From Patiria pectinifera (lineage: Eukaryota; Echinodermata; Asteroidea; Valvatida; Asterinidae): 64,000 bases of DNA. Within the stretch, counting starts at the first letter, position 1. Each line of letters starts with the position of its first letter. Below are positions 8,335-63,986 of this stretch, in pieces. Location of the stretch: the NCBI GenBank assembly GCA_029964075.1, contig CM057144.1, forward strand, positions 6,533,281 through 6,597,280, in the 5' to 3' direction. Below the pieces are notes generated by a model. It was not told where the DNA came from and made no database searches. It saw nothing but the letters and a program-made list of their open reading frames with translations. The position numbers and the translations under genes were made by a program.

Positions 8335-8457
8335 CTGGTCCCTGCAACGGGAAGTTGTAATTGATATGAACTCCACTTGAACCAACAATGATAGGGTTTT
8401 TGCTACCGCTGATTGTGTCGCTCTTTCCGATGCCGGTTCCAGTTCGTTGTGGGGAAT
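8335..8457 (-). CDS. Group D exon: RHIM/amyloid-like motif
   Basis: This internal exon of 123 bp has an AG acceptor just before 8457 and a GTAAAT donor at 8334, phase 1 on both sides. It translates to about 41 residues: a Ser/Gly/Thr-rich lead, the core TISGSKNPIIVGSSGVHINY, then NFPLQGP. The alternating Ile/Val with Gly, Asn and Ser, and the IIVG step, resemble RHIM and fungal/bacterial amyloid signalling motifs; this is inference. It is a clear paralogue of the exon at 47060-47179, and the flanking intron sequence also matches that copy. The next exon downstream (a NACHT exon is expected) would lie left of the gypsy element or outside the window. Confidence 0.7.
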
Positions 8458-11634: not shown

Positions 11635-12183
11635 CTAATGCAGCAGGTACCTCAGCCTCCTGTTGCATAGTGGTAGGGACAGAAGTCCGTTGGTAGGCTG
11701 CTGCAGATTGTTGCATCATGGAAGGGACATCATCAGTCCGTTGGTAGGCTGCTGCAGATTGTTGCATCATGGAAGGGACATTAGTCCGTTGGTAAGCTGC
11801 TGCACATTGTTGCATCATGGAAGGGAGATTAGTCCGTAGGTAGGCTGCTTCAGATTGTTGCATTGTGGTGGGGACATAAGTCCGTTGGTAGGCTGCTGCA
11901 GAATGTTGCATTGTGGTGGGGACATTCGTCTGTTGGTAGGCTGCTGCAGATTGTGGCATCGTGGTAGGGACATTAGTCCGTTGGTAGGCTGCTGCAGATT
12001 GTTGCATCGTGGTAGGGACATTAGTCCGTTGGTAGGCTGCTGCAGACTGTTGCACCGTGGTGGGGACATTAGTCCGTTGGTAGGCTGCTGCAGATTGTTG
12101 CATCATGGAAGGGAGATAAGTCCGTTGGTAGGCTGCTGCAGATTGTGGCATTGCTGTAGGAACATAAGTCCGTTGGTAGGCTG
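11635..12183 (-). CDS. Group D exon: eleven 16-residue repeats
   Basis: The donor GTAAGTATG follows base 11635 and a CAG/AAG acceptor pair precedes 12183 (alternative start at 12180), phase 1 on both sides. The exon encodes about 183 residues made of eleven near-identical 48-bp units with consensus SAAAYQRTNVPTTMQQ; one unit carries an extra residue. The last unit ends EAEVPAALG. No known family is recognised; the repeats are polar, Gln/Thr/Tyr-rich and proline-punctuated, so a flexible spacer or a low-complexity interaction surface is plausible. The donor lies only 14 bases from the end of the mariner-like element. It could be a non-coding minisatellite, but intact frame through all units and good splice sites argue for an exon. 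Confidence 0.6.
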
Positions 12184-12536
12184 CTTCAGATAAAATTAAA
12201 CGTAGACTCACATCCTTACTTTAGAGCCAGTCCCAAGCGACAAAAATCAGGTCAGACTTTTGGCTGGTAAAGTGGTGCAGGTAACCTGCTTTTTCCCCCC
12301 AATTTTTTTTGCTTCTCCTACTAGTCCTATAGCTGTATAGCACAGTCTGTGCTTAGCAGACCCATGACAGTTGACATCTGCCCATTTCATGATCTTATGG
12401 ATGTAAATCGCTTGTGACTGGTTTCTTAGCTGCATTTCTGCAATATTTTCTGCAATATTTTATGAGCAGATCAAGATTTCCATGTTATAAACCAGTTCTC
12501 CATTCAGACGGAGTGTATTGTCTAGGCAATTGTGAA

Positions 12537-19945: not shown

Positions 19946-20086
19946 AACAGATGCTGTGGTTTCAATATTAACAAAGAACAAAGCCTTGTTTTCCCATCAT
20001 ACAAGTGTGAGTCTAGTCTGTAAGGAATGACTACATTTACATCAGACTACATCTGGTTTGGAGTTGGTACATTCATTGATAATTAC

Positions 20087-20197
20087 CTTGAGCACCCGAG
20101 GCCACAGGTGGTGTTGGTGGTTGCTGTGATGTACTTGGTGGATTCTCTGATATGTCGACTGATGGATGACCAGAGTGGTGTGATGCATGTGCACCAT
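20087..20197 (-). CDS. Gene A exon 3: Pro/Ser/Thr/Gln linker
   Basis: A 111-bp exon with acceptor GATTGAAG before 20197 and donor GTAATTATC after 20087, phase 1 on both sides. It encodes about 38 residues: a His-rich start (HASHHSGHP), SVDISENPPS, then TSQQPPTPPVASGAQ. Composition suggests a disordered linker between the N-terminal motif and the effector or NACHT part; no domain is recognised. It is the direct counterpart of 48181-48291 in gene B, with a few substitutions and both splice sites kept. In gene A the expected next exons (amyloid-like and NACHT) are missing, so it can only join to group D exons or to cryptic sites. Confidence 0.72.
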
Positions 20198-21247: not shown

Positions 21248-21367
21248 CTTTTGATTGGTAGATATTGATGGTGCAATCTTTTGGGTTGAAGATGGGTACG
21301 TGTCCAGAGCCAGATATCTGATGCACTGACTGCTGCAATTGATTGACTGCTGCAACTGGGATCATGT
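21248..21367 (-). CDS. Gene A exon 2: intact amyloid-like motif
   Basis: A 120-bp exon with acceptor TTTTCCAG before 21367 and donor GTAGAAG after 21248, phase 1 on both sides. It encodes a Gln-rich helix-like lead (VAAVNQLQQSVHQ), then ISGSGHVPIFNPKDCTINIY and QSK. The core shares the ISGS start, a central hydrophobic triplet and a final Ile-x-Ile/Tyr strand with the exons at 47060 and 8335, so these are probably variants of one motif. RHIM and fungal PP-type motifs have similar length and alternation; amyloid activity is inferred. The gene B copy of this exon lost precisely the 20-residue core. Confidence 0.68.
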
Positions 21368-21893: not shown

Positions 21894-22026
21894 CTGTTGT
21901 CTGGTCCTGGTTGCCTGGTCTCCTCAAGGCCAGTGCTTGGTCCTGAGTCTCTGCACAGTCTCCATCAGCAACCTGCCCCTGTCTCTCAGCATCTTGTGTT
22001 GGCATCATGTCGTCTTGTTCAGCCAT
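21894..22026 (-). CDS. Gene A exon 1 (translation start)
   Basis: The start ATG at 22026 lies in a good context (AAAATGG). The exon encodes 44 residues plus one base, MAEQDDMMPTQDAERQG and on to GNQDQTT, then donor GTGAGC: phase 1. It is acidic and Gln-rich with no known domain, probably disordered. The gene B copy at 49705-49837 has the same length, same start and same donor with only a few changes, which supports real coding. Upstream (22027-22640) nothing else is recognised; about 585 bp near 22165-22750 are absent from the other copy. Confidence 0.72.
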
Positions 22027-32110: not shown

Positions 32111-32592
32111 AGCTATAGTCCATCATTTGCAGCCATCCGAAAAGTAACTGGCGTAATTATTGTTGAAAAACAAACTTAGTTGAAAGATAGTAAGGGAACT
32201 AAACTCCCTGTGAAATTATACTTTCTGGGAAGCTGTCATTTTGAAGTAATCAACGAAAGAAGGCATTTCCAACGGTGATTCTTAAGAAGCACCGTAGGAA
32301 AATTTAAATTAGTAGGTCGTTTTGTTCTTCAGCACAGCGCGCGCAAGTATTGGAACGACGAACACGCGCGCGCACTTGTTATAATTCGTCGGATCAGTGC
32401 GCGACATCGCGTATAGCTGCAATTCAAAACATGATTCAGTAACTTTTGATTTGAAATTGAGATCTTAGAATGCTGAATGCTGAAGCTGAGCTGAAACTTT
32501 ATCAGGTTAGTTGCTTAGTATCCTTTATTAGATTTTGAACTCTTTTCTTCAAACGAACAAAATGCACAAATTACAAATGATGGACTATAGCT
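32111..32592. mobile_element. TTAA MITE, 482 bp
   Basis: The ends AGCTATAGTCCATCATTTG and its complement are flanked by TTAA on both sides. The partner copy (about 57540) lacks it. Non-coding. Confidence 0.78.
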
Positions 32593-37050: not shown

Positions 37051-39767
37051 TTATGTCCCAATGACTAATCCATTCTTCTTCAGGTCACTCAGTGACTCAT
37101 CAATATGGTTCTTGTCTTCCTCTGTCAGGTGACAGCCCGTGAGGTGCAGCCTCTGAAGGTGCAGCAGCTGCTTTAACTCCATGCACCATAATGCTGCTGT
37201 GCCACACAGTCTATTACCATAAAGATCCAATTCAACCAAGTTGGGTAGATCCCTGAGTGACTCAGCAACATGTTTGATGTCCTGTCCATTCAATGAGCAG
37301 CTACGCAAGCTCAGCTTTGTAAGGGACTTCAACTGCTTCAAATGCATGCACCATAATGCTGCTGTATCACCCAGGTCATTATTATTAAGATATAATTCAC
37401 CCAAGTTGGGTAGATCCCTTAGTGACTCAGCAATTTGTTTGATGTCCTGTCCATTAAATGAGCACTTATAAAAGTCCAGCTTTGTAAGGGATTTCAACTG
37501 CTTCAAATGCATGCACCATAATTCTGCTGTACCACCCAGGTTATTACGCGCAAGATCCAATTCACCCAAGTTAGTTAGATCCCGGAGTGACTCAGCAACA
37601 CGTTTGATGTCCTGTCCATTCAATGAGCAGCCATACAAGTCCAGCTTTGTAAGGGACTTCAACTGCTTCAAATGCATGCACCATAATGCTGCTGTACCAC
37701 CCAGGTTATTACCAGAAAGATTCAATTCAACCAAGTTGGGTAGATCCCTGAGTGACTCAGCAACATGTTTGATGTCCTGTCCATTCAATGAGCACCTACG
37801 CAAGTACAGCTTTGTAAGAGACTTCAACTGCTTCAAATGCATGCACCATAATGCTGCTGTACCACCCAGGTCATTACCAACAAGATCCAATTCACACAAG
37901 CGGGGTAGATCCCTGAGTGACTCAGCAACATGTTTGATGTCCTGTCCATTCAATGAGCAGTTACTCAAGTTCAGCTTTGTGAGGGACTTCAACTGCTTCA
38001 AATGCATGCACCATAATGCTGCTGTACCACCCAGGTCATTATGAGAAAGATCCAATTTAGGTACCAAGTTGGATATATGCCTGAGCAACTTAGCAGTATC
38101 TGCATTGCTCTTGAAATCTACAGTATTAAGATTTGTCATTGCACACATGGTAACAGCTAACTCCTCAATAAACCATGTCCATTTACAAAAGTGTACATGT
38201 AATTTATGTACCTTAGCAAGGTAAGCATTTCCACTGTCTTTTGTCTGTTCCGCAACACATTTCAGAAAGTATATGACTGAGTTCAGACAATCCCTGTCAA
38301 GCCTATGAATGTACATTTCATCTGTTATGAATGAATGTATGAATTTCTCTGGAGGCAAACGTTTGGATTGACCTTCAAAGAAACAATGAAGTGCCAACTG
38401 ACCCATCTTTGATTTGAATGACAACTTCTTCGGATACGTCAACTGAAATTCCTTCATAATCTCATATGTACATGCCTCATTGTCACCACAACAAAAGCGC
38501 AGCAGATACTCAAACGTCCTTGCACCCTTAAACATAATTTCATTCAAAATCTTCTTAAATTCCTCTGGGTCTGCTTCTAACAAGCTTTGCAAGTAAGCAG
38601 CAGCAGAGAACTCCTGGAATGTCTTGTGAATAAACTGAATACAGTTGTGAGTTTGTAGTCCCTTGCGGTCTGTCTGTCTGGTCAGAATACCTGCTTTCAG
38701 AGCCAGCTCAAGCACACTCGACTCAAAGTCACTTTCTTTGAAAGAGAGTGACTGAGCTGGAGAAAGAAGACCATGCAACGCAACCTTGCCAATTTCAATC
38801 ACAATTTTTTGTACATGTACTTCGTCTTTTGAGTCCAATGTTTTTCTTTTGAAGATGTAGAGAACTCCATTACGATACAGACGTGACATTGTTTCTGGGA
38901 GTGTGCAATCTTTTCTCCATAATACACACATCAAAAGAAGAAGCATTGGACTTGCAGCTAAAGCAGACAGAAGACCTGATGATCTAATCTTTTTAAGAAG
39001 CCCCTTGGCCTTGACAGGTTCAGCTGTGTAAAATTTTCTAACATACTCGGCGACATCTTCACTACTGAAACCCATGACCTCGACATGTGTGAATGGGTCC
39101 TGAACCAGTTCCTCTGATACAAGTCTGTCAAAGTGTGAGGGTCGGGTGCTTACAAGTACACTACAACCCCTCAACACCTTACCACTTAGGATCTCCAGAA
39201 TGGAACCAAATGAGGATTCACACAAGGAAGTAGTCATGAGCTCATCAAAGCCATCCAGTAAAATGAGGACTTTTCCAGGACTCTTATTGATAAACATGTC
39301 CAGGGCACCTCTTTCAATACTTGTATCTTTAGCCAAGAGTTGGTCAAAAACTGCACCAACAAGATCTGAACTCTGCTCCAGTGCGTGCATTTTCAACAGG
39401 AAGACAAGTTTATACTTCCGAAGTACCTGACTAGAACCAACTGCCCAATCATATGCCATTTTGTCAAACAGTGTGGTCTTTCCTCTACCAGCTAACCCAG
39501 TTAAAACAGCTATTAGGATCGGGTCTCCTTCTTTTGTCTTACATTGTAATATATCATCATATGATGCCAGCTTGACTCTGTCCTTACCAAGTATTAACTG
39601 TAACTTTGTGTAGATTTCTGAAATGTGTTTCCTGTCATCACCCACCCATGGAAGCACTTTAACAAAGCTACCTTTCCTCCTGTAGTATGACTTCAGGGCA
39701 TCTTCACAGCAATCAGCAGCATCTTGGGCTGGACTGTCAAGCTTCATCTTTTTGGGTGCGCTGCATC
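37051..39767 (-). CDS. Gene B NACHT-LRR exon
   Basis: The single large 3' exon starts after the acceptor TTGTAG at 39768, entering in phase 1 as CSAPKK before Met-1 at 39747; the open part from that Met is 898 residues. Walker A GLAGRGKTTL is at residues 84-93, Walker B VLILLDGFDEL at 160-170 and a sensor-like VSTRP at 199-203, all intact, so ATP binding is expected. Residues of about 220-540 fit the winged-helix and helical regions that follow NACHT. From about 550 there are six LRR units of roughly 56 residues, each a pair of LRRs with anchors LGGTAALWCMHLKQL and CSLNGQDIKHVAESL; the sixth unit is a distinct capping repeat (HLTEEDKNHIDESL). No membrane segment or signal peptide: cytosolic. 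It is paralogous to gene C. Confidence 0.93.
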
Positions 39768-41744
39768 CTACAATGTTGAAATGAGCATAGAGTTGAATGA
39801 CTTAATCATACAATGCATTGTGGCATCCAAGAAATAAATTGGCTCCTTGTCTGTAGAAAGTACCATTTTGAGCTGAAATATTGGCTCATTGTATGCAAAA
39901 AGTTAAAGCTCTAAAAACTTGTTGGTTAAAGCTTGGGAGGATAAATATAAAATTTACTAGTGCGCCCCACGTATGTATGTCGGGCATGGTCAGGGATTGT
40001 CACTTAATTTTTGCCCGAGGGGTGGGGATTTTGTCATTTCAAAAGTGACAATCCCCATGTCTTGGGTATTATGAACCCAAGGGGGAGGGGGGGGAAACAA
40101 TTGATAGGCGCATTAGTGTAAAGCCCGCACTCACCAAAACACGTTACTTTTGCACAGAATCATGGAAAAGCTTATGAGTATGCGATGAGAATATAGCCGA
40201 TAACGCAGTACGAACTGAGGTGACAAATCTGTAGTATTGATTACAGAAAATAGGAAAATGACGTCGTAGTACATCACATGACCATTTCTAACCAATGAGA
40301 AGCTTCAGAACCAGGGAATCCCTTATCGATGCATTGGCGTAATTTATGTCGTGAATTTTGATATCGCTGCTTGAAAATTGACCCGTCCTAGCATGCAACA
40401 CTTGTACTCCCACAGAGCGCGCGCTCAGCAAGCTAAATACCGAACTCAGTGACCTTTCGGACTAAACATTTCCATTCAAAAAGGTGGATCACGCATAAGT
40501 GGGAACGCGACTTGCGGTTTTGTTACGGTAAGATAACGATTACACCAAAATGCCGGATCTTGATCCATCTTTTCCCAATTCAAGTGGGAACGCGATGATA
40601 GACAAACAGTGATCTTGGTATTTGTCTTGCTATTCTCATGAATCAACACTGTTTGGATTATGTTCCCACAATCGACAATAGAAACGTTTTGAGTGAAATT
40701 AACTGGAACTTTAAGAAACCTCCTTCAACCAAATACATTAAATTAGACTGAGGCAAAATATTATGTGCACGTCAAAAACAGGGTCCATCCAGCCCCCCCC
40801 CCCCCTCCCCTTAGGCGGGTTAGGTTGGAGTTATCATTATTTTTGGTTGGAAATTGTTTTGTGCTGATTAAATGGAGTATTACACTATGTGCATACTTTT
40901 TTTTGCCAAAAAAGTTTCATTTGAACAAATAAATTGTTTTGGGTCAGGTCATAACAATCAGTGTCAGTTGGTAACAAGAACCAGAAGTCATTTTTCCAGC
41001 CCTATCCAGAAATAAGCAACTACATGCAGGAGTGGAAGCATGCACCAGAAAGTGCATCCACCATATTACTTCAATTCGATTGAAGTAATAAGTTAAAGTC
41101 AATCGCAATGTAAGAACCCATAACAAAATTTGCTTTGCCCAACAGCTCATGTTACCAACCATGATTATTCATTTTCCCCCAAAACAACCCATTATTCCAT
41201 TCACTCATGCATAAATCAAGCTTTCAAGCAGACCCGGGGAAAAATTAGAAGAAAAGTACATGTAGCATCAAAATTAAGGAAACCTAAACCAATGAAAACA
41301 GGCATAAACAGGACTTTGGAGGAAAAAATCAGGATAAAGTAGGACTTTTGTGGGCTTTCAGGAGTAGTTTTCGTTGATACTCACCCACGTCCACAGCATC
41401 ATAAGCCTCAATTGGCATGTTCTGTACTCACAACACATGCGCTCCATCCTCAACTAAGCTCTTGGAAGTACGTTGCAGTACTCCTACGCCCAAGCCCTTC
41501 ATTGTGTGATTTACATATGACAATGTGTAACACCGTTATGAAAAATGTTTAGTGAGATTTCATTTTTCAGAGTTGTGGGACATAAAAAAAGTGGGAAAAA
41601 GTTGGAATTTTTAAATAAAAGTTGAAAAAGTCGGAGAAAGGTAAAAAAAAATAGGAAAAAATAGGAAAAATAGAAATACTTGAAAGCCTGATAAATGCAA
41701 AAATAATGTGGGACTTAGGTCAAGCCTTTTTCAAAATGGCACAA
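39768..41744 (-). other. Gene B last intron, 3' part
   Basis: Apart from the candidate first exon, this stretch holds no coding signal. Its 41490-41744 part (GTGTGATTTACATATGACA, CTTGAAAGCCTGAT, AATGTGGGACTTA) matches 7845-8085, so the intron is shared with group D. A C-rich tract lies at 40794-40806. Confidence 0.6.
41385..41418 (-). CDS. Candidate alternative first exon of gene B
   Basis: ATG at 41418 opens MPIEAYDAVDV and runs into a strong donor (GG|GTGAGTATC) in phase 1, which matches the phase-1 entry of the NACHT exon 1.6 kb downstream. An in-frame TGA lies three codons upstream, and reading it as an internal phase-1 exon meets a stop, so only a first-exon role works. The product would be an NLR without the amyloid-like motif. 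It is short, so chance cannot be excluded. Confidence 0.35.
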
Positions 41745-42050
41745 ATATATAAGCCTAGTGGTCTGGAGCATTGAATTTGTGGTCTGCCTGGCCAGCATAG
41801 GGTCATGGTGCATGTGACCTTGAGCAAGGCGCTTTGTCACTCACAGTTTCACTCCGCCCAGGAGTAGATGGGTACCTGTGAGGGCAGAGATGGTTACTGT
41901 GTGAGGTTGATTACGGCCAAGAGCACCGAAATGGCTGCCTACCGGCCGTGTATGCTCCCCAGGGAGTTGAGAAGGTAATAATAATTGTAAAGCACTTTGA
42001 TACCCCGTTTAAAAGCGCTATATAAATGCCTGTTATTATTTAAAAACTTA
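41745..42050 (+). mobile_element. tRNA-derived SINE
   Basis: A head with degenerate pol III boxes (TAGTGGTCTGGAGC, then GGGTCATGG) is followed by CCTTGAGCAAGGCGCTTTGT, GGGTACCTG and the tail AAAGCGCTATATAAATGCCT ending in TTATTATTT. This tail is typical of SINEs widespread in marine invertebrates. Confidence 0.7.
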
Positions 42051-42078
42051 ATCATTCAAAAAAAAGGACAAGACTTAA

Positions 42079-44568
42079 AGAGGCTGTGGAATGCTGAAAA
42101 TCATTTTGTTTTTTATATTTTTATATTGTAGAGTAGACCCATATATAGCATAATGGCAAACCCCCATTCTTTTCTAATGTACGTTTATATGTTTATAAAA
42201 CTGAAATTCATCGAGTAATTTGTTGGTCGGCGAGCGCATAATTGAAATCAACAGTCGTCGGGCTCTTCGTAAAATCAGAAAAAGCGTGACGTAATATACA
42301 GGACTCGTTTATACAACGACTGTTTACTGCTGCCCAACCCGCCCCGTCAGCACGTGTGACTCGCAGTCAAGCAGTGTATAAATCAACATTTTGTAAAAGA
42401 CTCGCGGAGATTGATATTCCTTTCCATTGCTTAATTTTTGGATGAGTATATTGAACAAGGACACGGTGACCTCTGAGCTGTTCTTCCGTATAAATTTGAG
42501 CCCCAACTGCCCGAAAAAGTGACCAGCGAAAACACGGATACTGCAACTGGCCAGCTGAAAACGCCAGGCAACGCGGCTCTGATGAGTGGTAGGTCTGCAA
42601 CGATTGCGTGAAAAAAAACAGCTGCGTTTTATCCAAGGACTCAAAGTATTATGTTCATGATACCATTTTTAGATGAGCATCAACAGTCCTACCGCAACTC
42701 TCTTCGTGATTTACAGACAATCTCAAACGTTATTCTGGTGAATATTCAGTCCACAGAGACGACAAATCGTCAGGTTGTTTTCGAATTATACGCGTACGGC
42801 ACGCATAACGCATCACGGCAGTGGATGTGGTCGACCGTGTCCAGAACTAATGTTGTACGGTTAGCAGCGTCGCGGGCCCCAGTCAAGTTCCTTGCGTTGC
42901 CTGGCGTTTTTTATGTATACGTTCGCCACAAAAAATAGTCCTCTTCTCTTTTCTTTCCTTGTGCATTTTAACCCTTGTTTTAACATCCTTAAACAATAAT
43001 TACGAATTTACTTGAATTTTGAAATTGTTAACTTTATTGTTTACCCCCCAAAAAAGCCGTAGGCTTCCGCTTCACCTCGGCCTGTAAACGTGGCTAAAAC
43101 TAAAGTAAAATTCATAAAGCATAGTCATATGCTCCGTTCATAAAACAAAAATCTCTGGACTCACGACATGTTCGGGATCCCGGTTGAAAACAAAATTCAC
43201 TAGTCCCGAAATTTAACGAGCACTATCATTATTTTCAGTACCTAATTAAGACTTTATTCAAGAAATTCCAGAGGCAGAGAATTTGTCATTCGATCAAAAG
43301 AAGTTCTAGAGAAAATGGAGGGTGAGGCCTGTCACATTTATCAGCACTAACGTAAGGAAAACTACGTGGTCCTTTTTCTACGCATTTGTGTGTGTGACAA
43401 CGCATGCGCGTATGCTGCGCAGATAATGGAGGGTCGAGGATACATTTGAACGGGTCTACGGTTCTTCAAGATTGGCAATGGACAAATGGTCCAAAACAGT
43501 CTTCCCTATAAATCATTAACAAATCATATCTCTATTGTTTCTTGTCCAATTTCAACAAATCATCTCTTGAGAAAAGAAGACTCTTGCCGTACAAAATGTA
43601 CAGTGCACGCATGATCAGCGCTCTATCCGTTAATTTGGCTGAAATCTGATCTCGTGTTTTCGCACGGTACCCTTCGGACAAACTGCATGGCTACGGAGAA
43701 TTCTTATTCCTCCATGCTGACACGCGGACGGGAAAGCTGGAAATTTATTGCAAACAAAATGTGATTACAGCCAGCGACTGACACAATTATAGGCATATAC
43801 ATGTAGGTTTGCCTTGGCCTAGTGCGTTCGCTACCCGTACACGTATCAACAAGGAATTATTTTGAAATTCCAACACCGTTTACCGGTGTCAAAATCTACG
43901 GTCCCAACGGCCGGGCCAGCGGAACACAGTACACCCGTGAATTTCCGGCCAGCTTTACATGCGCGTGTCACGGTGATGCGATGTGCATGTGAACGATCGA
44001 ACGATGTTGATGTACATGTGTAACGCAGACATTTCTTACTATGGTTGGCCGTTGTAGCAAACACAAAAGAATGATCCCCGATCTATAAATAAAATGATGT
44101 GTAACTACCAAAACACTGAATAATCAATAAAAAGTACCAAAAAGTCAATGGAGATATCTTCTTATTAAATTCTGAACTTGCCCATTAGAATTTCGGGGGT
44201 AAAAGCTGTTGCCAACTACGGTTGAATATATGGAGCATGTGGCTGCCCATACAAAATGTCGCTCAGTGTAATTGTAAACAAAGTCATGTCGTTGCGCGGA
44301 GTGATTTGCAAAAAGTTTCGCTGGAACTACGCTGCATCGGGAGTCCTGTTTATTACGTCACAATTTACTATGTTTTGTTTGCTGCCCCAAACGACGACTT
44401 TTACACAAATTGCACGTTCGGGTCGAAACAGGACCTGAAAAACAGCTATCAAAAGTACCTTTTGCATTCATTTCATGACAGAAACAATAGTTGTTTTTAT
44501 TTCATCACACCCTAGGCTACATATACCCCAAAAATGACGGAAATGTCTTCGAGCATTCCACAACCTCT
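42079..44568. mobile_element. Large non-autonomous TTAA element, 2.5 kb
   Basis: The ends AGAGGCTGTGGAATGCT and AGCATTCCACAACCTCT are flanked by TTAA. The uninterrupted site (CAAGACTTAACC) exists at about 44976 and 8118. No transposase frame is recognised. Part of the interior (about 42120-42960) matches 59680-60700. Confidence 0.8.
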
Positions 44569-44779
44569 TTAACCGCTATATAAAGCACCCTCCATTGTGT
44601 CAACCATATTTTGACTTGGTTTATAGTTGTACCAAAGAAAATTGGTGACTCTCGCTCGCGGAACTGACAGTCTTTTGTGCCCATGTTTATGTAGTGTAAC
44701 AAAAGAAAAAAATTGTATATATAGATATTGACTTTTCATATCAAATTACTTCCATCTTAACGCACAAGATTATTATTAT

Positions 44780-44856
44780 CTGGTACTGGTATCAAGTTGT
44801 GAATGATAACCACATTTGAACCAACACTGACAGGATTGTAACTGCCACTGATTGCG
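44780..44856 (-). pseudogene. Decayed duplicate of the amyloid-like exon
   Basis: It reads ISGSYNPVSVGSNVVIIHN and matches the exon at 47060-47179, but the donor GT has become AT and the 5' third is replaced by a SINE tail. The surrounding intron (44573-44770) is also a duplicate of 46881-47050. So the exon was tandemly duplicated and the downstream copy died. Confidence 0.72.
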
Positions 44857-44945
44857 TATGCTCCCCAGGGAATTGGTAATAATAATTGTAAAGCACTTTG
44901 ATACCCCGTTTAAAAGCGTTATATAAATGCCTGTTATTATTTAAA
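44857..44945 (+). mobile_element. SINE 3' tail fragment
   Basis: TATGCTCCCCAGGGAATTGG through AAAGCGTTATATAAATGCCT and TTATTATTT match the 3' half of the SINE at 41745. It abuts the broken exon copy. Confidence 0.75.
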
Positions 44946-45036
44946 AAGTTAATCATACAAAAAAATTACAAGACTTAACCGCTATATAAAGCACCCTCCA
45001 TTGTGTCAACCGTATTTTGACTTGGTTTATAGTTAC

Positions 45037-46880
45037 CAGTGTTGTAGTCGAGGCCACAACCTCCAAGGCCAAGGCCGAGGCCGAGGCCTCAACCGCGAGG
45101 CCGAGGCCAAGGCCACCACCTCCGAGGCCAAGGCCGAGGCCAGCTATTAACTCTTTCGCTACGGAATTAAATTAACTTTTTTGTCCCAACTGGACTTAAT
45201 TAAAAGCTGAAAATTCCGCCGAGCGTCGATGTGGGCGCCGCCATCTTTAAACGTATCTCCGTAAACAAACTGCTCACAATAACCAAAAGCGCACCCCGGC
45301 CAGACGGAGAGCCGCTGGCAGCGGCTCGAACTAGGGTCAGAGGTTATTCGATATAAATTATGTAGATAAGGCACACGTCATGGGGATACCCTGTTTATTC
45401 ATAGCGACGCAACCGAGCCGCTGCCAGCGGCTCTCCATAAGACCTGTACAATTTGTATGTGCCGCTGTCAGCAGCTCGCCGTAGCAAAAGAGTAATAAAA
45501 TATAAATCACGTAATAAAATATAAATCACTAAAACAAGGCTAAGATTATGTTGGAGTTTTAACATCTTTTAGTGGAATTCACCGAGTTTTGGAGTGCCTG
45601 GCTTACAAATTTAAAGCTTGCAATGTGTTTCCTTTTGTAGGGAGTCCAGCAAATTTGTTTTTTTTATAGAAAGAAATCCGAGCAAACATCGCGATGCGAC
45701 CAGACAATGCCAGACGGCCCGCAGTTAGGCACGGGCATAGTGTAATTCCAATACCGCTCCATGGAATAAGTGTCCACGCATTATCACAAGCAAAGTCTGG
45801 CAATGGCCGATCCCGCTCCAAAACAACACGGCAACACGGAACATGCGTGCATGATATCACTCAGTTCATCAAAATGACCACGAATTCTCGGATCATCCGA
45901 TTTGGATCCAATGGCTTCGAATAATTTGAAGATCATGGCACTGAGAGGTAGGGAAGTGGTTTTAGCCGTATTTGTAACCACGCAAAAATTAGTCAATTTC
46001 AAACCGTGCTTATGTAAGTATCAACATTGCTCTAAAAATACAAAAAGGATCCTGGTACCACGAGGAATACTGACTCCTATTATTAAAACATTCATTCAGA
46101 ACTTTGCATTCATTTGGATGGAAAAACAAATTCTGAAATCGTGCTTTCCATATCGACCAACTGCACCAAACATTACAGTTTGAGCCGGAACTTTCATTAA
46201 AACCACCATGTAAAAATTAAATCTACTTGATAAATCGTAACTGTTTTCGTCATATCTTTATGAAAAAAAATGGTACGGACTAGTACACTCGATCGTACCC
46301 AAAAAGTTCAGACTTTAATTAAAACAGTGGCCTATAACAAGAAATGATTAAGCTTGCCGCACCTTGCCGCAAATCTTTTTTAAAGGTCGGGGTACAGAGG
46401 CGAAACGCAACACTGTAACCAGACTAGTCTAGCACCGCATGATATTGTACACGGATGGGATTGGTGCCAGACTTATGTAGTCTGGCACGCGGTAACAGTA
46501 ACGCTTGCACGCACGTGGAAAGCTGAAGCGCAGGCTAGGCGAAGATGCTACGTACATGTACATACGTTCAATGCAACCATTATCATCAGTGTTTTCATTC
46601 GTGCCTACATTGTACATGTGCATTTGTTTCACGGAACCCACTGCGGCAGAATCTCGAGGGTTTGATACGGTAAAAAAATAAAATGAATTAGAAAAGAAAA
46701 ACATCACAATGGGCGGCCTCGAGCCGGCCTCGACCGATTCGCCGAGGCCGGTAGGCTCCAAGGCCGAGGCCAAGGCCGAGGCCTTGCACTCCGAGGCCGA
46801 GGCCGAGGCCTTGCACTCCAAGGCCAAGGCCGAGGCCATGAAAATCAGCCTCGAGGCTGGCCTCGAGACCTCCAACACTG
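45037..46880. mobile_element. hAT-like element with GAGGCC arrays, 1.84 kb
   Basis: The ends CAGTGTTGTAGTCGAGGCC and GGCCTCGAGACCTCCAACACTG are imperfect inverted repeats. The right flank is AGTTGTAC and the left flank AGTTAC, which fits an 8-bp duplication with a 2-bp loss; the undisturbed site is at about 44630. Arrays of GAGGCC or AAGGCC hexamers fill both subterminal regions. No transposase frame is recognised between them. It sits in a gene B intron. Confidence 0.8.
45151..45492. mobile_element. MITE nested in the hAT-like element
   Basis: CTCTTTCGCTACGG on the left faces CCGTAGCAAAAGAG on the right (13 of 14 paired). The left flank is TTAA and the right TAAT. Internal palindromes GAGCCGCTGGCAGCGGCTC recur twice. 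Confidence 0.62.
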
Positions 46881-47059
46881 AGTTGTACCAAAGAAAATTG
46901 GTGACTCTCTAGCTCCCGGAACTGACATTCTTTTGTGCCCATGTTATGCAGTGTAATATCTTTCCCCCCCCCCCCCCCCCCCAAAAAAGGGGGAAATATA
47001 TGCATATTTACATTTCATATCAAATTACTTCCATCTTAAGGAACAAGATTATTATTTAC

Positions 47060-47179
47060 CTGGTCCCTCCAACGGGAAGGTGTAATGGATATTAACCGCA
47101 CTTGAACCAACAATGATAGGATTGTAACTGCCACTGATTGTGCCGCTGTTTCCGATGGTTCCAGTTTGTTGTGGGGAAT
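47060..47179 (-). CDS. Gene B exon: RHIM/amyloid-like motif
   Basis: A 120-bp exon with acceptor TTGTAG before 47179 and donor GTAAATAAT after 47060, phase 1 on both sides. It encodes a Gly/Ser/Thr lead (SPQQTGTIGNSG), the core TISGSYNPIIVGSSAVNIHY, then TFPLEGP. Two beta-prone stretches (NPIIVG and AVNIHYTF) are separated by a Gly-Ser turn, as in RHIM (consensus I/V-Q-I/V/L/C-G) and in PP-type motifs of fungal and bacterial NLR systems; the usual Gln is Ile here. It joins in frame to the NACHT exon. It lies where effector motifs sit in amyloid-signalling NLRs. Function is inferred. Confidence 0.72.
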
Positions 47180-47458
47180 CTACAATCAGAAGCAGGAATA
47201 ACACCATCGTTAACAAAATGACAGACAAAATGATGCATGCATGTGCTTGATTCCATCTCTACTTGTCGTCTGTTCTTGGAAGACAATTTTGTTTTTTTAT
47301 TTTTCAATCTGACCGTTCATGAACAAAGAAGTACCTGACATACAACACCAGGCTGTATCAAAACATCTTCAGGTGAGGTGGGGAGGGGGAGGGTGGTACA
47401 ATGTAAGTAAATGTATCTCCACTCCCCAGCAAGGTTATAAATTGACAACAAGCAACTA

Positions 47459-48103
47459 CAGGGTGAGTCAAAAAAAGCGGAACCCAAACCCCCCAAATTT
47501 TATTTCATATTTTAATGACTGAAAAACGAACTTCATAAACTACTTTTAGAAAAGAAAAAAAATACTGAAATTGCTCTATCCAGGAAAAATCACCATTTAA
47601 ACACAATGACCCAAAAACCTCTTTCTTCCAAAAATGTGATTTCAAGAATCGTCGTCACAATTGTCTTCAAACATCACCAGCGATAAAACCTCAGTTTAAA
47701 AGTTAAAAAGTATTCAACAAAGTCCTTTTGAAGGCCCGTCTTTACCAAAAAAAAGGTGGATTTTATAAATTACCAGATTGTTTGCCTAACCAGGGTTGTT
47801 AATAAAGATATTGTGTCCTGCAGTTGTTGACAGTTGTTGAAACAAGTATTCTGTGTTATTTTCTTTGTTGTTTTAACCAGTCAGCATACACAATAAACTG
47901 CTTTTTTGAAAGAAACAGGTTGAAAGTCATTACGTTTAAATGGTGATATTCTTTGAACAGAGTGAGCAATTTCAGTAATTTTTTACACCTAAATGTAGCT
48001 TACAAAATTGGCTTTCCAGTCATTATAATGTTTGGTGCTACATATTTTTTTTAATGAAATATATTTTGGGGGGTTTGGGTTCCGCTTTTTTTTACTCACC
48101 CAG
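47459..48103. mobile_element. Mariner-like foldback element, complete
   Basis: The ends CAGGGTGAGTCAAAAAAAGC and GCTTTTTTTTACTCACCCAG are flanked by TA (47457-47458 and 48104-48105). The inverted similarity runs through CCCAAACCCCCCAAA and, inside, AATGGTGATATTCTTTGAA. It separates the linker exon from the amyloid-like exon of gene B. Confidence 0.83.
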
Positions 48104-48180
48104 TACAAGTGTTTCACTAGTCTGTAAAGAATGACTACATTTACATCTGGTTTGGAGTTGGTACATTCATTGATAATTAC

Positions 48181-48291
48181 CTTGTGCACCTGAGGCCACA
48201 TGTGATGTTGGTGGTTGCTGTGATGTACTTGGTGGATTCTCTGATATGTCAACAGATGGATGACCAGAGTGGTGTGATGCATGTGCATCAT
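48181..48291 (-). CDS. Gene B exon 3: Pro/Ser/Thr/Gln linker
   Basis: A 111-bp exon with acceptor GATTGAAG before 48291 and donor GTAATTATC after 48181, phase 1 on both sides. It encodes DDAHASHHSGHPSVDISENP and on through a TSQQPPTSHVASGAQ tail: about 38 residues, low complexity, no domain. Only about four residues differ from the gene A copy at 20087-20197, and the reading frame and both splice sites are kept. It likely acts as a flexible arm between the acidic N-terminus and the amyloid-like motif. Confidence 0.75.
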
Positions 48292-49086
48292 CTTCAATCA
48301 AATCGAAAATGAGAAGGATAATTGTTTATTGCCGGAAAAGGAAACAAGCACATTATCATATATTAGGGAATTGACCCTCCTCGTGGGAAGTCAACCCTTT
48401 AAAACCCTGAAAGTCAGTTTCAAGTGAAGGGATGTGAAGTGTAAAAGTAACTGTGTCATATACATGCACACAAATATAATAGTCACTTCACAAAAACACA
48501 GCTGTGTGTCAACATCCATGAAGCGTGACAGCATCTACATTCTTGCCTAAAATAAGCTTCACCACACACAACAATTGTGCTGTAAAAGTGTTATCCAAAC
48601 CGACACAAAGCAAACAAATTTGAAGTAGGGGTGATAACTGTACCAGCCAAAGTGCAGAAGACTAGGAGGGTTAATGCTTAGAATTTGCAAGTGTGCTACA
48701 TAATGCAGGTACATGTATTTATTGAAATTATTTTTTTTTAAATGATTTCATTTTGTTGCAGTAACGCATCCCTAGTTGAGGCCAATGGTTGGTAAAGCAA
48801 AACAAGGTCTCTGCTTTGATGAACTGTACAAATTTGCAGTAAGTTGCCAACTGGCTAATATTCGATGGCAGCAACTACATCACTGTGATCTTGGTATTTG
48901 TCTTGTTTATGCTCACGAATCAACAATATTTAGGTCCTGCTCCCACTTTGACTTATTATCTTGAAAGCTTAATTAGAAACCTATTTCAATCAAACATGCA
49001 ATAAATTACACTGATCCAGAAATAAGCAAATAGGAGTGGATGCATGAAAAGAGATTGTGTATCATGAATTATTTGTTGTCTTCTAC

Positions 49087-49146
49087 CTTTTGATATCTGC
49101 TGCACTGACTGCTGCAATTGATCGACTGCTGCAACTGGGATCATGT
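49087..49146 (-). pseudogene. Gene B exon 2, motif core deleted and acceptor lost
   Basis: Compared with the intact gene A exon (21248-21367), 60 bp are missing in frame, removing residues SGSGHVPIFNPKDCTINIYQ; the break has ATC microhomology. The acceptor CAG|ACATG has become CGG|ACATG. The donor GTAGAAG is kept. Skipping keeps phase 1, so gene B can still be read without it. Confidence 0.8.
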
Positions 49147-49704
49147 CCGGAAAATGGGAATAAAATGTCTCTTATAATACAACACCTGAATAAATCCCCT
49201 TCATCTGATTGGTGGGTCATTGATCACATGTCATATTGGATTAATCATCCCAACCCACATGGCCTGGCTACACCGCAAAAATAGAAGTTTCGTTCCATGG
49301 TCACACTATTGGTAGCGGTGTTACACGGCTCTGATGGCTCTAACAAATCAGATGACAAGGACTTATTCAGGCGTTGTATGAACAAATAATGAATGTTTCA
49401 CATTCATGCAACATAAAGAATAGTTTCATGAGGTGACAGATGGAATTATTCTTACCACTGCACTCATCATAACCATTTAAAAAAAAAAAATATTACAATA
49501 AATTTCTGCAAAAAAAAAAATCAATGAAGTCAAGAAGCAAAGAAAGTGAATAGCCCCTTGCACTTCAATACACATTTCTTAACTTAAACAATTCCTTTGC
49601 ATTTTAATTTCGTACAAACTGTAAAGCGTGAACAAGTCAATAGTGAAATGTCTCCAGGAATCAACGTGCATACGGTTTGCTTACAGCCAGGGTTTATTGC
49701 TCAC

Positions 49705-49837
49705 CTGTTGTCTGGTCCTGATTGCCTGGTCTCTTCAAGGCCAGTGCTTGGTCCTGAGTCTCTGCACAGTCTCCATCAGCAACCTGCCCCTGTCTCTCAA
49801 CATCTTGTGTTGGCATCATCTCGTCTTGTTCAGCCAT
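49705..49837 (-). CDS. Gene B exon 1 (translation start)
   Basis: The start ATG at 49837 lies in context AAAATGG; the exon encodes MAEQDEMMPTQDVERQG through GNQDQTT and ends at the donor GTGAGC, phase 1, 133 bp. Acidic, Gln-rich, no recognised domain. It is nearly identical to 21894-22026. The sequence 5' of it (49838-49930) is also conserved between the two copies and probably contains the 5' UTR, but I cannot point to a TATA box or initiator with confidence. Confidence 0.75.
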
Positions 49838-49935
49838 TTTTGATGAAATCTGATGGAAAAATTATTGAACCATGAGAAATCATTACAAAGGTACTAAAGC
49901 TTTAAGCTGTTAAGAAGTTATTCCGGTTTTATGGT

Positions 49936-50487
49936 ATACAAACATTGAATGCTTCGAGTGGTGTAGTAAAACTAGCCTCCCGAGGTGATCCATGGACATT
50001 CTATTTTCCCGAGGCAAAGCCGAGGGAAAATAGAATGGTCCATGGATCATCGAGGGAGGCTAGTTTTACTTCACCACGAGATAAAGCATTCAATATTTGT
50101 TTTATAACACTTCACCCACAGATTCTGCTTGATTTTAATATTTTAAATTATTTAAATATGAACACAGTTGAAATAAACTTCAATTTCAATACAAAATTAG
50201 TGAAAAATGTATTTCTCTCTCCCAAACTACCCCTTCACGAAATGTTTGAACCCAAGTCTGCGGCGCGCTCTCTTTGAAACAATACGCGCTATGCGCAACG
50301 CGCACACAAGCATCCATTTGCACACAAATACCGCACCGTGGGTACTTTGTTTGCCAATGGTATAGTACTTTGGTTGCTACGGGTATAGTACTTTTGGCCG
50401 TACACAGAAAGATAGCAAAATTAGAAAGTAACATGTGACTTGCTCTCGGCCAATCAAGACACAGAATCTGTGGTTGAGGTGTTATAA
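49936..50487. mobile_element. Palindromic insertion upstream of gene B
   Basis: Absent from the gene A copy, which reads TTATGGTGTAAATTATT without a break. It contains a strong palindrome (CATTGAATGCTTCGAGTGG to its complement near 50090, with GGGAAAATAGAATG in the middle) and a second pair, TTATAACACTTCACC near 50102 and GGTTGAGGTGTTATAA near 50470. Probably one composite or two adjacent foldback elements. Confidence 0.6.
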
Positions 50488-50539
50488 TGTAAATTATTGA
50501 AAGTCAACGGTTAAATACATCTTTGTTTGTTTGACAAAA

Positions 50540-52480
50540 CAATGGATTTGGCCTTTGTTGTAGGACGGGGTAATGCTGGGGGAAATGCCTCAGATTTTTA
50601 AACCAATTGTGATGCCACCATGAACTTTTGTTAAACTAAAGAGGACAATCTGATATAGTTCATGTCTAAATCTCATCAAGCTTCTACAGGTATGTAAAGT
50701 TTTTCCATTTCGAGTCAAGGAAGTCCACCATCACATCAAAAATGTATGTTGATCAGAAATAGCGCCCGTCAGTAGGCCATGTGAAACACAAGCGGGGAAC
50801 CTTGCTGACAACAACCTGGATGGGGTATGTCGGAGAGAATGCCTACTGATGGCGATGCCAGCCTGACCTTTTATAGAAATAAAGGAGAGCGCTCATGTGA
50901 ATCGCAATGCGGGAGAGCTTGCTTGCATATAAGCTGGACAGGGTATGCTGGGGAAAATGCCTCTCATTTTTAAAGTGATTGCGATGCCACACTGAAGGTA
51001 AAACTAAAGGAGAGAATCTGTTAAAGTTCATGTGTAAATCTATCATTTAGTTTCTATTTGTAGGTTTTCTACAACAAGTTTGAGGAAGTCCAGCGCCACA
51101 TTCAAAATGTACATCGATCGTAAACAGTCTTATGCCTCAGCATCCACGTGAAATGTGGGAGACCTTGCTTGCAAATTGACCGATCATTTATGATGCCGCC
51201 CTGATTCTTTGGCATCCACTAGTCGAGGAGTGGCTATGCAATTAAAATGAGAGGCATTGATCTCCCCGGCATACCACATCCGGCTTGTATTGCAAGCAAG
51301 CTCTCCAGCATGTGTGTTTCACATGGGCGCTGACATGGCTGAGGCAGAAGACTGTTTCCGATTGACATACTCAGGGGTGTGAGTGACCACTGATAAAAAT
51401 TGCTGAAAACAGCTGAAAAAGGAGCAAAAAAGCTGAACTTTAGAAATCTCCTATACTTTTGTACACAGCAAGTGAGGGCAAAAAGCTGAAATCCACAACA
51501 AAAACCAGGTGAAATCAGCTTTAAAGCTGAGATTTCACACCCCTGCATACTTTTTAATGTGCACTGGACTTCCTCCACGTGTTATGGACAAACTACACAT
51601 GGAAACTTGATGAGATTTAAACACATGAACTTTCTTTAGTTTTATAAAATTGAAGGGTGGCATCCAATTGCTTTTAAAATGAAAGGAATTCTCCCCAGTG
51701 CGGCATACCCTCATCCAGCTTGTATTTGCAAGAAATCTCTTGTGTGTTTCACGCGGGTGCTGAGGCATCATACAACTGTTTCCGATCGACGTACATTTTT
51801 ATTGTGGTGCTGAACTAATCCTTGACCTGTTGTGGAAAAACTATACCGATGAAAATTTGATGAGATTTACACATGATCTTTAACTGATAGTATGCTAGTT
51901 TTACACAAGTCCTGGGTGGCATCGCAATCAGTTTAAAAATGAGAAGCAATTATCCTGGCTTATAATATTAGTAATAACCGCGACCCACTTGGTGAAGCAT
52001 TACTGTAGTTTATCGTTTAGCCTTCACACAAAGACCAAGTCCATTCTTTTTACAAGTCAGCTTAACCCTAACTCCCTAGCATCTTTTACTAGGAACTGGA
52101 CCAATTCCATCAAAATCCATCAATCACTGTGCGTCTAATACAAAACTGAACATAATGGAATCCACCACTGACGCACTGGTTGACATTCATGGACTTGCTA
52201 CACATGGCTTTTATCACAATAGCAGTACAGGAAGCTGAGGCAAAATCAATCGGATACCCCAAGCACTGCCTCACGTTCATCATACTCCATCAATATTTAG
52301 TCATGCTAGGCCTTCTGGCATGTCTGGACCCCAAAATCCACCAAAATGGGGAGATGGATTTTGATGGAGTTGGGGTGGTTTGGCTAAATTCCCTGTTTAT
52401 TCAACATCTTCAAATTAGTTATCATACAGCCAATCATGCTCTGCCGTACTCAAAAAAAAAAGAACAGAATTTCTAACACT
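50540..52480. mobile_element. Foldback element, copy 2 (left end lost)
   Basis: It matches 22750-24859 throughout, including forward and inverted tandem units, but lacks the outer left repeat and part of the second forward unit. The right end (GCCAATCATGCTCTGCCGTA, then TTTCTAACACT) is kept. Confidence 0.75.
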
Positions 52481-53115
52481 TCTATTCTAAATTACAATAT
52501 TTCTCTAGATTAACATTTGCTTTTATTTGATGTCCGTTATGGAGCACCATAGTGGTGAATGCTGTGCATGAATCTGGGGAAAGAATGTAGTATTCGGACG
52601 CCATGCGCGCCACTTCAGCAGTCGTGTACATAGCCCCATAAATTTGGCCAATTTACTGAACTACCTCCATAAAAGGCCCCACGTCCACTTCCACCATGTA
52701 CAAAAACATGTCAAACTCTGTCAAATTTTGATTTTCACATTTAGGCTTAGTTTGTAGTGTATTTTTGCTTTAGAAGCATACTCACCCCCTTTATAGGCTA
52801 ATCAGAAGTGCTGCCTTTTTCAGATGTCTAATTTTTTCGTAAAATATCATGTTGAAATTTTGATACGCAAACGTGTGCAAACGAATCTGGACATTTCACT
52901 AAAACTAGACGGAGAGAAGCCTTCTAATTCTAGAAGTACCCAGCAAACAGGACGCTCAGGGAAGGGCTGATGAATTTACGCTCTGATTGGATAGATTTTG
53001 CGTGACCTGTGACCTGCAAGTCATCACGGCCACGACCCTGCAAGGTTTTAAACAACCATTAAGTAAAGACTGAGCAATGATTCATTGCTTTTTAAAATAT
53101 TCTTGACAATCATAA

Positions 53116-61095: not shown

Positions 61096-63986
61096 TTAAA
61101 ATTCATTCCAGTAATCCATCATGTCAATTTCTAATCCATTCTTCCTTAGGTCACTGAGTGACTCATCAATATGGTTCTTGTCTTCCTCTGTCAGGTCACA
61201 GTCGCTGAGGTTCAGCCTCTGAAGGTGCAGCAGCTGCGTTACCTCCATGCACCACAATGCTGCTGTACCACCCAGGTCATTAAAAGAAAGATCCAATTTA
61301 ACCAAGCTGGGTAGATCCTCGAGTGACACAGCAACATCTTTGATGTCCTGTCCATTCAATGAGCTGTTACTTAAGTCCAGCTTTGTGAGGGATTTCAACT
61401 GCTTCAAATGCATGCACCATAATGCTGCTGTACCACCCAGGTCATTATGACAAAGATCCAATTCAACCAAGTTGGGTAGATCAGCAACATGTTTGATGTC
61501 CTGTCCATTCAATGAGCAGTCATCCAAGTTCAGCCTTGTGAGGGACTTCAACTGTTTTAAGTACGTGCACCATGATGCTGCTGTACCAACCAGGTGATTA
61601 CCACGAAGACTCAAATGACCCAAGCTGGGTAGATCCCCGAGTGACTCAGCAACATGTTTGATGTCCTGTCCATTCAAGGCGCACCGAGCCAAAAATAGCC
61701 CTGTGAGGGACTCTAACTGGTTTAGATGCATGCACCATAATGCTGCTGTACCACCCAGGTCAGCAAAACAAATACACAATTCAGCCAAGTTGGGTAGATC
61801 CCCAAGTGACTCAGCAACATATTTGATGTCCTCTCCATTCAATGAGCATTCATTCAAGACCAGCCTTGTAAGAGACTTCAACTGTTTCAATTGCATGTAC
61901 CATAATTCTGCTGTACCACCCAGGTTATTACAAGAAAGATCCAATTCAGGTACGTTGGGTAGATCCCCGAGTGATTCAGCAATGTGTTTGATGTCCTCTC
62001 CATTCAATGAGCAGGAACGCAAGCCCAACTCTGTGAGGGACCTCAACTGCTTCAAATGCATGTACCATAATTCTGCTGTACCACCCAGGTTATTACCAAA
62101 AAGATCCAATTTACCCAAGTTGGGTAGATACCCGAGTGATTCAGCAATTTGGTTGATGTCCTGTCCATTCAATGAGCACCTACCCAAGTCCAGCTTTGTG
62201 AGGGACTTCATCTCTTTTAAATGGACGCACCATAATTCTGCTGTACCACCCAGGTCATTATAAGAAAGATTCAATTCAGGTACCAAGTTGGATATATGCC
62301 TGAGCAACTTAGCAGTATCTGCATTTTCCTTGAAATCTACAAGATGAAGATTGGTCATTGCACACATGGTAACAGCTAACTCCTCAATAAACCATGTCTG
62401 TGTACAATAGTGTACATGCAATCTACGTACCTTGGCAAGGTAAGCATTTCCACTGTCTTTTGTCTGTTCATCAACACATTTCAAAAAGTAGCTGACTGAG
62501 TTCAGACAATCCCTGTCAAGCCTATGAATGTAAATTACATCTGTTATGAATGAATGTATGAATTCCTCTGGAGGCAAACGTTTGGATTGACCTTCAAAGA
62601 AACAATGAAGTGCCAACTGACCAATCTTTGATTTGAATGCCAATTTCTTCTGACATTTCACATGAAATACCTTCAGAATATCATATGTACATGCCTCATT
62701 GTCACCACAACAAAAGCGCAGCAGATACTCAAACCTCCTTGCACCCTTTGACATGATTTTATCCAAAATCTTCTGAAATTCCTCTGGGTCTGCTTTTAAC
62801 AAGCTCTGCAAGTAAGCAGCAGCAGAGAACTCCTGGAATGTCTTGTGAATAAACTGAATACAGTTGTGAGTTTGTAGTCCCTTGCGGTCTGTCTGTCTGG
62901 TCAGAATACCTGCTTTCAGAGCCAGCTCAAGCACACTTGGCTCAAAGTCACTTTCTTTGAAAGAGAGTGACTGAGCTGGAGAAAGAAGACCATGCAACGC
63001 AACCTTGCCAATTTCAATCACAATTTTTTGTACATGTACTTCATCTTTTGAGTCCAATGTTTTTCTTTTGAAGATGTAGAGAACTCCATGACTATACAGA
63101 CGTGACATTGTTTCTGGGAGTGTGCAGTTTTCTCTCCATAGTACACACATCAAAAGAAGAAGCATTGGACTTTTGCCTAAATTAAACAGAAGGTGTGACA
63201 ATTCAATCTTTTCAAGAAGTCCCTTGGCCTTGTCAGGTTCACCAACATAAAATCTATTAACATACTTGGTGACATCTTTCCTACTGAAACCCATGACCTT
63301 GACATGTGTGAATGGGTCCTGAACCAGTTCCTCTGATACAAGTCTGTCAAAGTGTGAGGGGCGGGTGCTTACAAGTACACTACAACCCCTCAACACCTTA
63401 CCACTTAGGATCTCCAGAATGGAACCAAATGAGGATCCACACAAGGAGGTAGTCATGAGCTCATCAAACCCATCTAGTAAAATGAGGACTTTTCCAGGAC
63501 TGTTCTTGATAAACATGTCCAGGGCACCTCTTTCAATACTTACATCTTTAGCCAAGAGTTGGTCAAAAACTGCATCAACAAGATCTGAACTCTGCTCCAG
63601 TGCGTGCATTTTCAACAGGAAGACAAGTTTGTACTTCTGTAGTACCTGACTAGAACCAACTGCCCAATCATATGCCATTTTGTCAAACAGTGTGGTCTTT
63701 CCTCTACCAGCCAAACCAGTTAAAACAGCTATTAGGATCGGGTCTCCTTCTTTTGTCTTACATTGTAATATATCATCATATGATGCCAGCTTGACTCTGT
63801 CCTTACCAAGTATTAACTGTAACTTTGTGTAGATTTCTGTAATGTGTTTCCTGTCATCACCTACCCATGGAAGCACTTTAACAAAGCTACCTTTCCCCCT
63901 GTAGTGTGACTTCAATTCATCTTCACAGCAATCAGCAGCATCTTGGGCTGGACTGTCAAGCTTCATCTTTTTGGGGGCGCTGCATC
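61096..63986 (-). CDS. Gene C NACHT-LRR exon (gene continues past right edge)
   Basis: The exon starts after the acceptor TTGTAG at 63987, phase 1, with the same CSAPKK lead; the open part from Met at 63966 is 956 residues. Walker A GLAGRGKTTL, Walker B VLILLDGFDEL and VSTRP are intact at the same positions as in gene B. It has seven LRR units against six in gene B, one of them five residues short (HVADLPNL in place of HVAESLRDLPNL), and a longer C-terminus ending MMDYWNEF. The helical region around residues 228-268 differs sharply from gene B although the rest of NACHT is nearly the same. Its N-terminal exons lie beyond 64000. Cytosolic NLR, probably functional. Confidence 0.93.

Follow-up and report, generated by a model that had tools for sequence, protein, structure and literature searches.

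A 64,000-nucleotide stretch of Patiria pectinifera DNA (hereafter the window; contig C16, positions 6533281-6597280, in a 613.5 Mb assembly) carries NLR genes, two of which, here called gene A and gene B, encode short N-terminal motifs on small exons of their own. Two such motifs, class 1 and class 2, are distinguished below. Gene A (minus strand, 49837-37051) reads through four exons into a single open NACHT-LRR protein, with every junction in phase 1 and of the AG/GT type. Its features are the following, P0001 being a predicted protein of Patiria miniata.

49705..49837, minus strand: exon 1, low-complexity acidic N-terminus with the start codon at 49837 (133 nucleotides; frame, GT donor, paralogue at 22026)
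49087..49134, minus strand: remnant of a class 2 motif exon (48 nucleotides; peptide also in P0001)
48181..48291, minus strand: exon B, a linker (111 nucleotides; joined frame)
47060..47179, minus strand: class 1 motif exon (120 nucleotides, phase 1-1; splice sites, frame, genome copies)
47082..47141, minus strand: class 1 core peptide, TISGSYNPIIVGSSAVNIHY (coordinates checked)
44784..44852, minus strand: decayed class 1 copy within the last intron (sequence similarity)
37051..39767, minus strand: NACHT-LRR exon with the stop at 37053-37051 (joined frame, NACHT profile)

The initial annotation had described a 120-bp exon joined in phase 1 to a NACHT-LRR exon, and this observation of a motif exon within an NLR gene is confirmed by the AG/GT sites, the one open frame and a NACHT match in a Pfam profile search (PF05729, E 5.1e-25). 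Support for the junctions of genes A and B comes from splice sites, frame, paralogues and predicted proteins. The LRRs of gene A form repeats with a period of 165 nucleotides whose translation reads as LRRs; with Pfam they scored below the cut-off in the truncated gene A query and above it in P0001. The segments of P0001 follow the order of gene A, namely exon A, remnant, exon B, class 1 motif and NACHT. The class 2 remnant of gene A, absent from the initial annotation, has lost its core through an in-frame deletion and its original acceptor through a change of AG to GG; use of a downstream CAG acceptor gives exactly VAAVDQLQQSVQQISK, as in P0001. The segment at 49134-49087 is possibly an extra (fifth) small exon of the gene.

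Gene B is arranged in a similar way and carries both motifs.

21894..22026, minus strand: exon 1 (paralogy, joined frame)
21248..21367, minus strand: class 2 motif exon, QISGSGHVPIFNPKDCTINIYQSK (120 nucleotides, phase 1-1)
20087..20197, minus strand: exon B (paralogy, joined frame)
11635..12220, minus strand: probable alternative first exon with 16-residue repeats, AAYQRTDVPTTMQQS (start not fixed)
8335..8457, minus strand: class 1 motif exon (123 nucleotides)

The NACHT-LRR exon of gene B is found outside the window, about 5 kb to its left (C16, from about 6528227 downwards), with a NACHT match (PF05729, E 1.6e-23) and LRR profiles over the cut-off in the same exon (L049). Exon A, the class 2 motif, exon B, the class 1 motif and NACHT join into one open frame of 1178 residues, and therefore both motifs could sit in one gene B protein according to this gene model. 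The repeat exon at about 12220-11635 looks like an alternative first exon because the proteins P0008-P0010 start with such repeats. Related cores had been pointed out at three other places in the window, of which 8457-8335 is an intact class 1 exon and 44852-44784 a decayed one; the third, at 21248, is related as well but represents a separate motif (class 2, QISGSGHVPIFNPKDCTINIYQ, exon 21367-21248).

A long tandem duplication connects the regions of the two genes (20048-33556 against 48142-58915), with a block spacing of about 25.4-28.1 kb and 90-97% identity for the blocks found among the best 20 of 34 repeat families. About 81.35 kb beyond 37051-49837 on C16, the motif exon, the NACHT match and the decayed copy recur, with an identical motif peptide (L009/L010). 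This copy, offset by about 81,350 bases, represents a tandem duplication of very recent date or else an uncollapsed haplotype, and its class 2 remnant contains TAG.

The motif exon recurs beyond what chance would give and more widely than had been supposed. Searched against its own genome with E up to 10, the class 1 exon peptide has 134 matches, spread over C5, C8, C10, C11, C16, C17, C19, C21, C22, C422 and C588, and 127 of the 134 lack a stop. Among the best 30 of these loci, 28 of them distinct, all are open and all show, as read by eye, an AG in front of the exon and a GT behind it; the counts of open copies and splice sites are biased, coding copies being what a search with a protein picks up. 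With the class 2 peptide, 14 genome matches were obtained, all on C16, including three core-deleted remnants, one of these with a stop.

At least nine of the 30 class 1 loci are followed by an NLR-type match (L013, L015, L026, L028, L029, L030, L034, L037 and L038), as judged from 1.5 kb flanks and the best four matches per locus. Where motif exons or groups of them were traced for about 7 kb or more, seven of nine reached a NACHT exon (gene A, gene B, C8, C10:11.877 Mb, C11, C21 and C22), so the association of motif and NACHT is drawn from a sample of the 134 copies. Between the window, C8, C11, C21 and C22 types, the NACHT domains are 29-65% identical and the motifs 50-76%, with the motif higher in nine of ten pairs. 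Since the NACHT types differ, the motif exon is used by several NLR lineages.

The remaining two of the nine lie on C10, at 11.946-11.952 Mb (three copies) and 11.991 Mb (one copy), and within the stretches read (11 and 8 kb, respectively) neither a NACHT exon nor any other NLR match was found downstream. The three motif exons of the former (L039, C10:11945800-11953800) are 2.4-3.3 kb apart, and the copy at 11.991 Mb (L042) follows 40 kb on; local duplications (93-94% identical) connect two of the three copies, as well as the first of the three to the copy at 11.991 Mb. NLR genes with very long introns, a gene made of motif repeats or debris might account for these copies. That the C10:11.88-11.99 Mb array holds a motif gene which is not an NLR was considered and is rejected for now; the first copy there has a NACHT exon about 8.3 kb on.

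Among the closest matches, the proteins that carry a name are NLRs from sea stars (Patiria miniata, Acanthaster planci and Asterias) and from one brittle star (Amphiura). Seven of nine sampled NLR exons are 78-95% identical to the best retrieved protein, and two about 35%. Out of 63 retrieved proteins, 17 match the class 1 profile and 10 the class 2 profile; 13 of the former and 8 of the latter belong to the alignments from which the profiles were built, so that their match is a given. The class 2 motif is also present in NLRs of Acanthaster and Asterias. No Pfam match to an N-terminal death fold (CARD, PYD or Death) was obtained for the gene A composite, P0001, P0012, P0013, P0015, P0038, P0040 or P0057. 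A different arrangement is seen in P0018 of Acanthaster, with the order class 2 motif, Death, NACHT and LRR, while P0015 of the same genus has the motif and lacks the Death domain. In precomputed Pfam assignments, the NLR-type proteins with a Death domain among the closest matches listed are all from Acanthaster (P0014, P0018, P0019, P0022, P0024, P0028, P0032 and P0048), and a Death-like segment appears by eye to be repeated in P0019 and P0022.

The class 1 motif peptide is short, mostly uncharged, beta-prone and contains glycine and asparagine. In an aggregation scan with AGGRESCAN values, 20 chosen sequences had a usable boundary, and in 13 of them the top 9-mer of the N-terminus overlapped the motif; two further sequences were dropped because the boundary was not found. 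An AlphaFold2 model covering the N-terminus of P0023, built on a 29-row alignment of chosen NLRs, gave residues 1-74, which hold the motif, a predicted local distance difference test (pLDDT) score under 50, with no folded domain before the NACHT module. By sequence order, and with disorder taken from this model, the motif occupies the position of a short motif in a disordered N-terminus ahead of an NTPase. The modelled disorder would suit a motif that stays unfolded until it assembles, and a docking motif or a linker just as well.

The initial annotation had called the motif RHIM/amyloid-like; the RHIM core, like that of PP motifs, is described in PMC7885112 as G-(I,V)-Q-(I,V)-G. RHIM membership is rejected here because none of 27 distinct class 1 peptides has the Q-centred core and neither a profile nor a structure matched. 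A loose [IV]-x-[IVLC]-G pattern occurs in 15 of the 27. The profile search that the annotation had proposed for the core returned no RHIM profile from Pfam, with E allowed up to 10, either for the gene A composite or for 23 distinct motif sequences, with HMMER filters being insensitive to such short motifs, and the motif sequences matched no RHIM structure in the PDB. Two further matches were discarded: PF25645 (E 0.082, one of 8 class 2 rows) is attributed to chance, and the best class 2 PDB score (E 0.0017, repeat protein Tako8) adds up weak repeats and carries no meaning.

Two glycines and one isoleucine, besides a boundary codon, are invariant across 28 class 1 exons. Charged replacement types are rarer than expected in the class 1 core (7 of 61 versus 14.3 expected, binomial P 0.015), whereas they are not depleted in its flanks (10 of 39 versus 8.7 expected). 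Compared between eight loci, the exon is more alike than its upstream intron flank in 25 of 28 pairs (one tie, two below) and more alike than its downstream flank in 27 of them. For class 2, six chosen NLRs of Patiria, Acanthaster and Asterias were compared, and all 15 pairs show higher identity in the 22-residue motif (0.36-0.77) than elsewhere in the N-terminus (0.16-0.46); the pairs are not independent, and the motif was chosen too. This comparison left out P0038, P0057 and P0063, and in two pairs, where the global alignment did not align the motifs, motif identity was counted directly. The N-termini of Patiria and Acanthaster align widely too (P0005/P0015, 47% over about 140 residues). Aligned with hhalign, the profiles of the two motif classes fall into register, at E 3.4e-4 and a probability of only 38%.

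The best reading of this arrangement is one of tandem sea-star NLR genes in which one or two motifs would take the place of a CARD, PYD or Death fold in a disordered N-terminus. We tentatively regard the motif as a candidate amyloid signalling motif, distinct from RHIM and acting in homotypic cross-beta signalling among NLRs, a reading that we place somewhat short of probable. It is suggested because the layout, a disordered N-terminus with a short beta-prone motif containing glycine and asparagine, followed by NACHT and LRR, resembles that of fungal and bacterial NLRs. Also in its favour are the in-frame splicing onto an intact NACHT, the many open copies with their splice sites, the higher conservation of the class 2 motif than of its surroundings, the register shared by the two classes, the depletion of charge in the core, the aggregation peak on the motif in most of the N-termini, the modelled disorder, the motif being more alike than NACHT between diverged NLRs, and the make-up of P0018. 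Amyloid templating by motif-bearing NLRs is by this analogy a plausible mechanism; the interpretation offered in the initial annotation is supported in part, in its layout and in the want of a reported animal counterpart, while its RHIM component has fallen away. Oligomerisation of NACHT would bring the motifs together, the gathered motifs could nucleate a cross-beta assembly, and this assembly might recruit further proteins bearing a similar motif, which as the evidence stands would most likely be other NLRs of the same family. As P0018 combines motif and Death domain and P0015 has the motif without Death, a relay by homotypic contact is suggested by one predicted protein, P0018, in which motif-only sensor NLRs would pass the signal to Death-domain NLRs of the P0018 type and these to caspases and lytic death. 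The wider proposal, that sea stars evolved independently of RHIM a diversified set of amyloid motifs on NLRs, copied as exons to more than 100 places beside several NACHT lineages and feeding motif-plus-Death NLRs, is rather unlikely to hold in all its parts.

Potential partners outside the family were sought with a motif library among proteins of about 246-782 amino acids, which yielded three matches at E up to 10, all NLRs (best 7986 candidates scored), and with the class 2 core among proteins of about 344-1094 amino acids, which yielded seven NLRs and P0063. The latter, from Asterias rubens, has an NLR N-terminus with the class 2 motif joined to myosin-VIIa-type MyTH4-FERM domains; it may be a misjoined gene model (or a gene fusion) and is rejected as evidence of a partner. 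An exact 24-residue core scored only 30 bits in the former search, and such searches would therefore miss a diverged partner. Looking for the core in effector proteins, as had been proposed, thus returned the motif on NLRs, with this doubtful chimera as the only non-NLR carrier.

Several results weigh against an amyloid role. No convincing non-NLR protein with the motif emerged from these searches, which are weak for short diverged 25-mers, and the top aggregation 9-mer lay elsewhere in 7 of the 20 N-termini. More than half of the retrieved proteins (36 of 63, some of them fragments or without an N-terminus) match neither profile, and by BLAST P0038 gave a weak class 2 match and P0057 none. 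Only P0018 among the eight Acanthaster Death-domain proteins matches a motif profile, the other seven giving none, and no P. miniata protein with a Death domain is among the closest matches listed, so that the relay has no Patiria counterpart there. The ratio of nonsynonymous to synonymous substitution (dN/dS) was computed by the Nei-Gojobori method, with boundary codons, over the 28 distinct class 1 exons; at 0.89, it indicates that the overall constraint on this exon is weak. Downstream flanks are more alike than their own single shuffled control in 21 of 28 pairs, and recent copying of the exon together with its flanks therefore accounts for part of the conservation of the motif. Finally, the class 2 core has been lost in gene A.

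Among the alternatives, the one that survives best, unlikely as we consider it, is a non-amyloid short linear motif, a beta strand that docks into a folded partner such as an adaptor, protease or kinase without templating. A short hydrophobic and glycine pattern in a disordered region is equally typical of such motifs, and no effector sharing the motif came out of the searches described above. Moreover, according to the available text of PMC11932488, a sea-cucumber NLR without CARD recruits caspase-1 via a different N-terminal domain, and therefore echinoderm NLRs can signal without a homotypic motif. However, the two related motifs in the predicted gene B protein and the use of the motif on several NACHT lineages fit homotypic assembly slightly better, and a 25-column core with charge depletion is long for docking. 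Less likely again is a largely passive exon cassette, in which the N-terminus is a flexible linker and the motif exon, of little function, has spread through duplicated genes and copied exons, with signalling through NACHT/LRR or other domains. The dN/dS value, the similarity of the intron flanks, the loss of the class 2 core in gene A, the decayed copy within an intron and the many relatives without a motif match would all be expected of it; on the other side stand the 127 of 134 open copies and the 30 of 30 with splice sites (both counts biased to coding copies), the conservation of class 2 above its surroundings across genera and the confinement of charge depletion to the core. A true RHIM that has drifted and interacts with RHIM proteins would agree with the loose pattern in 15 of 27 peptides but is highly improbable, given the missing Q-centred cores and RHIM matches and given that the available text of PMC12119088 reports no echinoderm RIPK1 homologue with the RHIM tetrad and a Death domain. 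This absence is qualified by a sea-cucumber protein named AjRIPK3, mentioned in PMC11932488.

Elsewhere in the window, three further features were recorded.

61096..63984, minus strand: NACHT-LRR exon of the next paralogous gene (88.8% amino acid identity over 578 amino acids)
373-5379, plus strand: polyprotein frames resembling, by eye, a Ty3/gypsy retrotransposon, in the last intron of gene B and on the opposite strand
14286-15634: 20-bp tandem repeats in three blocks

The initial annotation had remarked that no animal NLR of such a layout is described, and this remark is borne out in so far as the top-ranked results from the open-licence literature contained no report of an amyloid motif on an animal NLR, only work on amyloid NLR motifs of fungi and bacteria and on the RHIM of vertebrates. 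If the wider proposal is true, the NLR amyloid signalosomes of fungi and bacteria would gain their first counterpart in an animal, and the motif could be a new signalling route for animal immune receptors. It would also bear on the route from echinoderm NLRs to lytic death, as RIPK1-RHIM homologues were not found in echinoderms according to the portion of PMC12119088 available. A sea-cucumber MLKL is activated by caspase cleavage and not by RIPK3 phosphorylation (available text of PMC11932488). TRADD-N domains have been described in marine invertebrates, Acanthaster and Asterias among them (PMC8195603, as far as its available text goes).

Among known systems, fungal NLRs (NWD2/HET-S, PNT1/HELLP; HRAM and PP motifs) likewise have a short N-terminal motif with conserved glycine and asparagine on a STAND/NACHT-type receptor, and likewise comprise several motif families. 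The fungal motifs are paired with a HeLo or HELL effector gene in a cluster, as the available text of PMC7885112 describes, whereas none was seen beside the sea-star motif; the sea-star core is also unlike the PP core (G-phi-Q-phi-G) and, unlike the fungal motifs, lies on an exon of its own that occurs over 100 times within a single genome. The amyloid signalling sequences of bacterial NLR-like receptors (BASS) are similarly N-terminal and diversified into families, but occur in receptor and effector gene pairs with BELL, TIR or CHAT effectors (available text of PMC7889193), and no effector pair was seen in the sea star. Within animals, the RHIM of RIPK1 and RIPK3 and the RHIM-like motifs of Drosophila Imd and PGRP-LC are amyloid motifs of, likewise, about 20 residues; in the sources available RHIM sits on kinases and adaptors and not on NLRs, and the sea-star motif is without its Q-centred core or a profile match. 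Echinoderm NLRs with Death-type N-termini share the NACHT-LRR architecture, although the gene A composite and the scanned motif-bearing NLRs other than P0018 are without a death fold match. P0018 joins the Death domain and the class 2 motif in one protein, and the sea-star motif family is directly testable in an experimentally accessible echinoderm.

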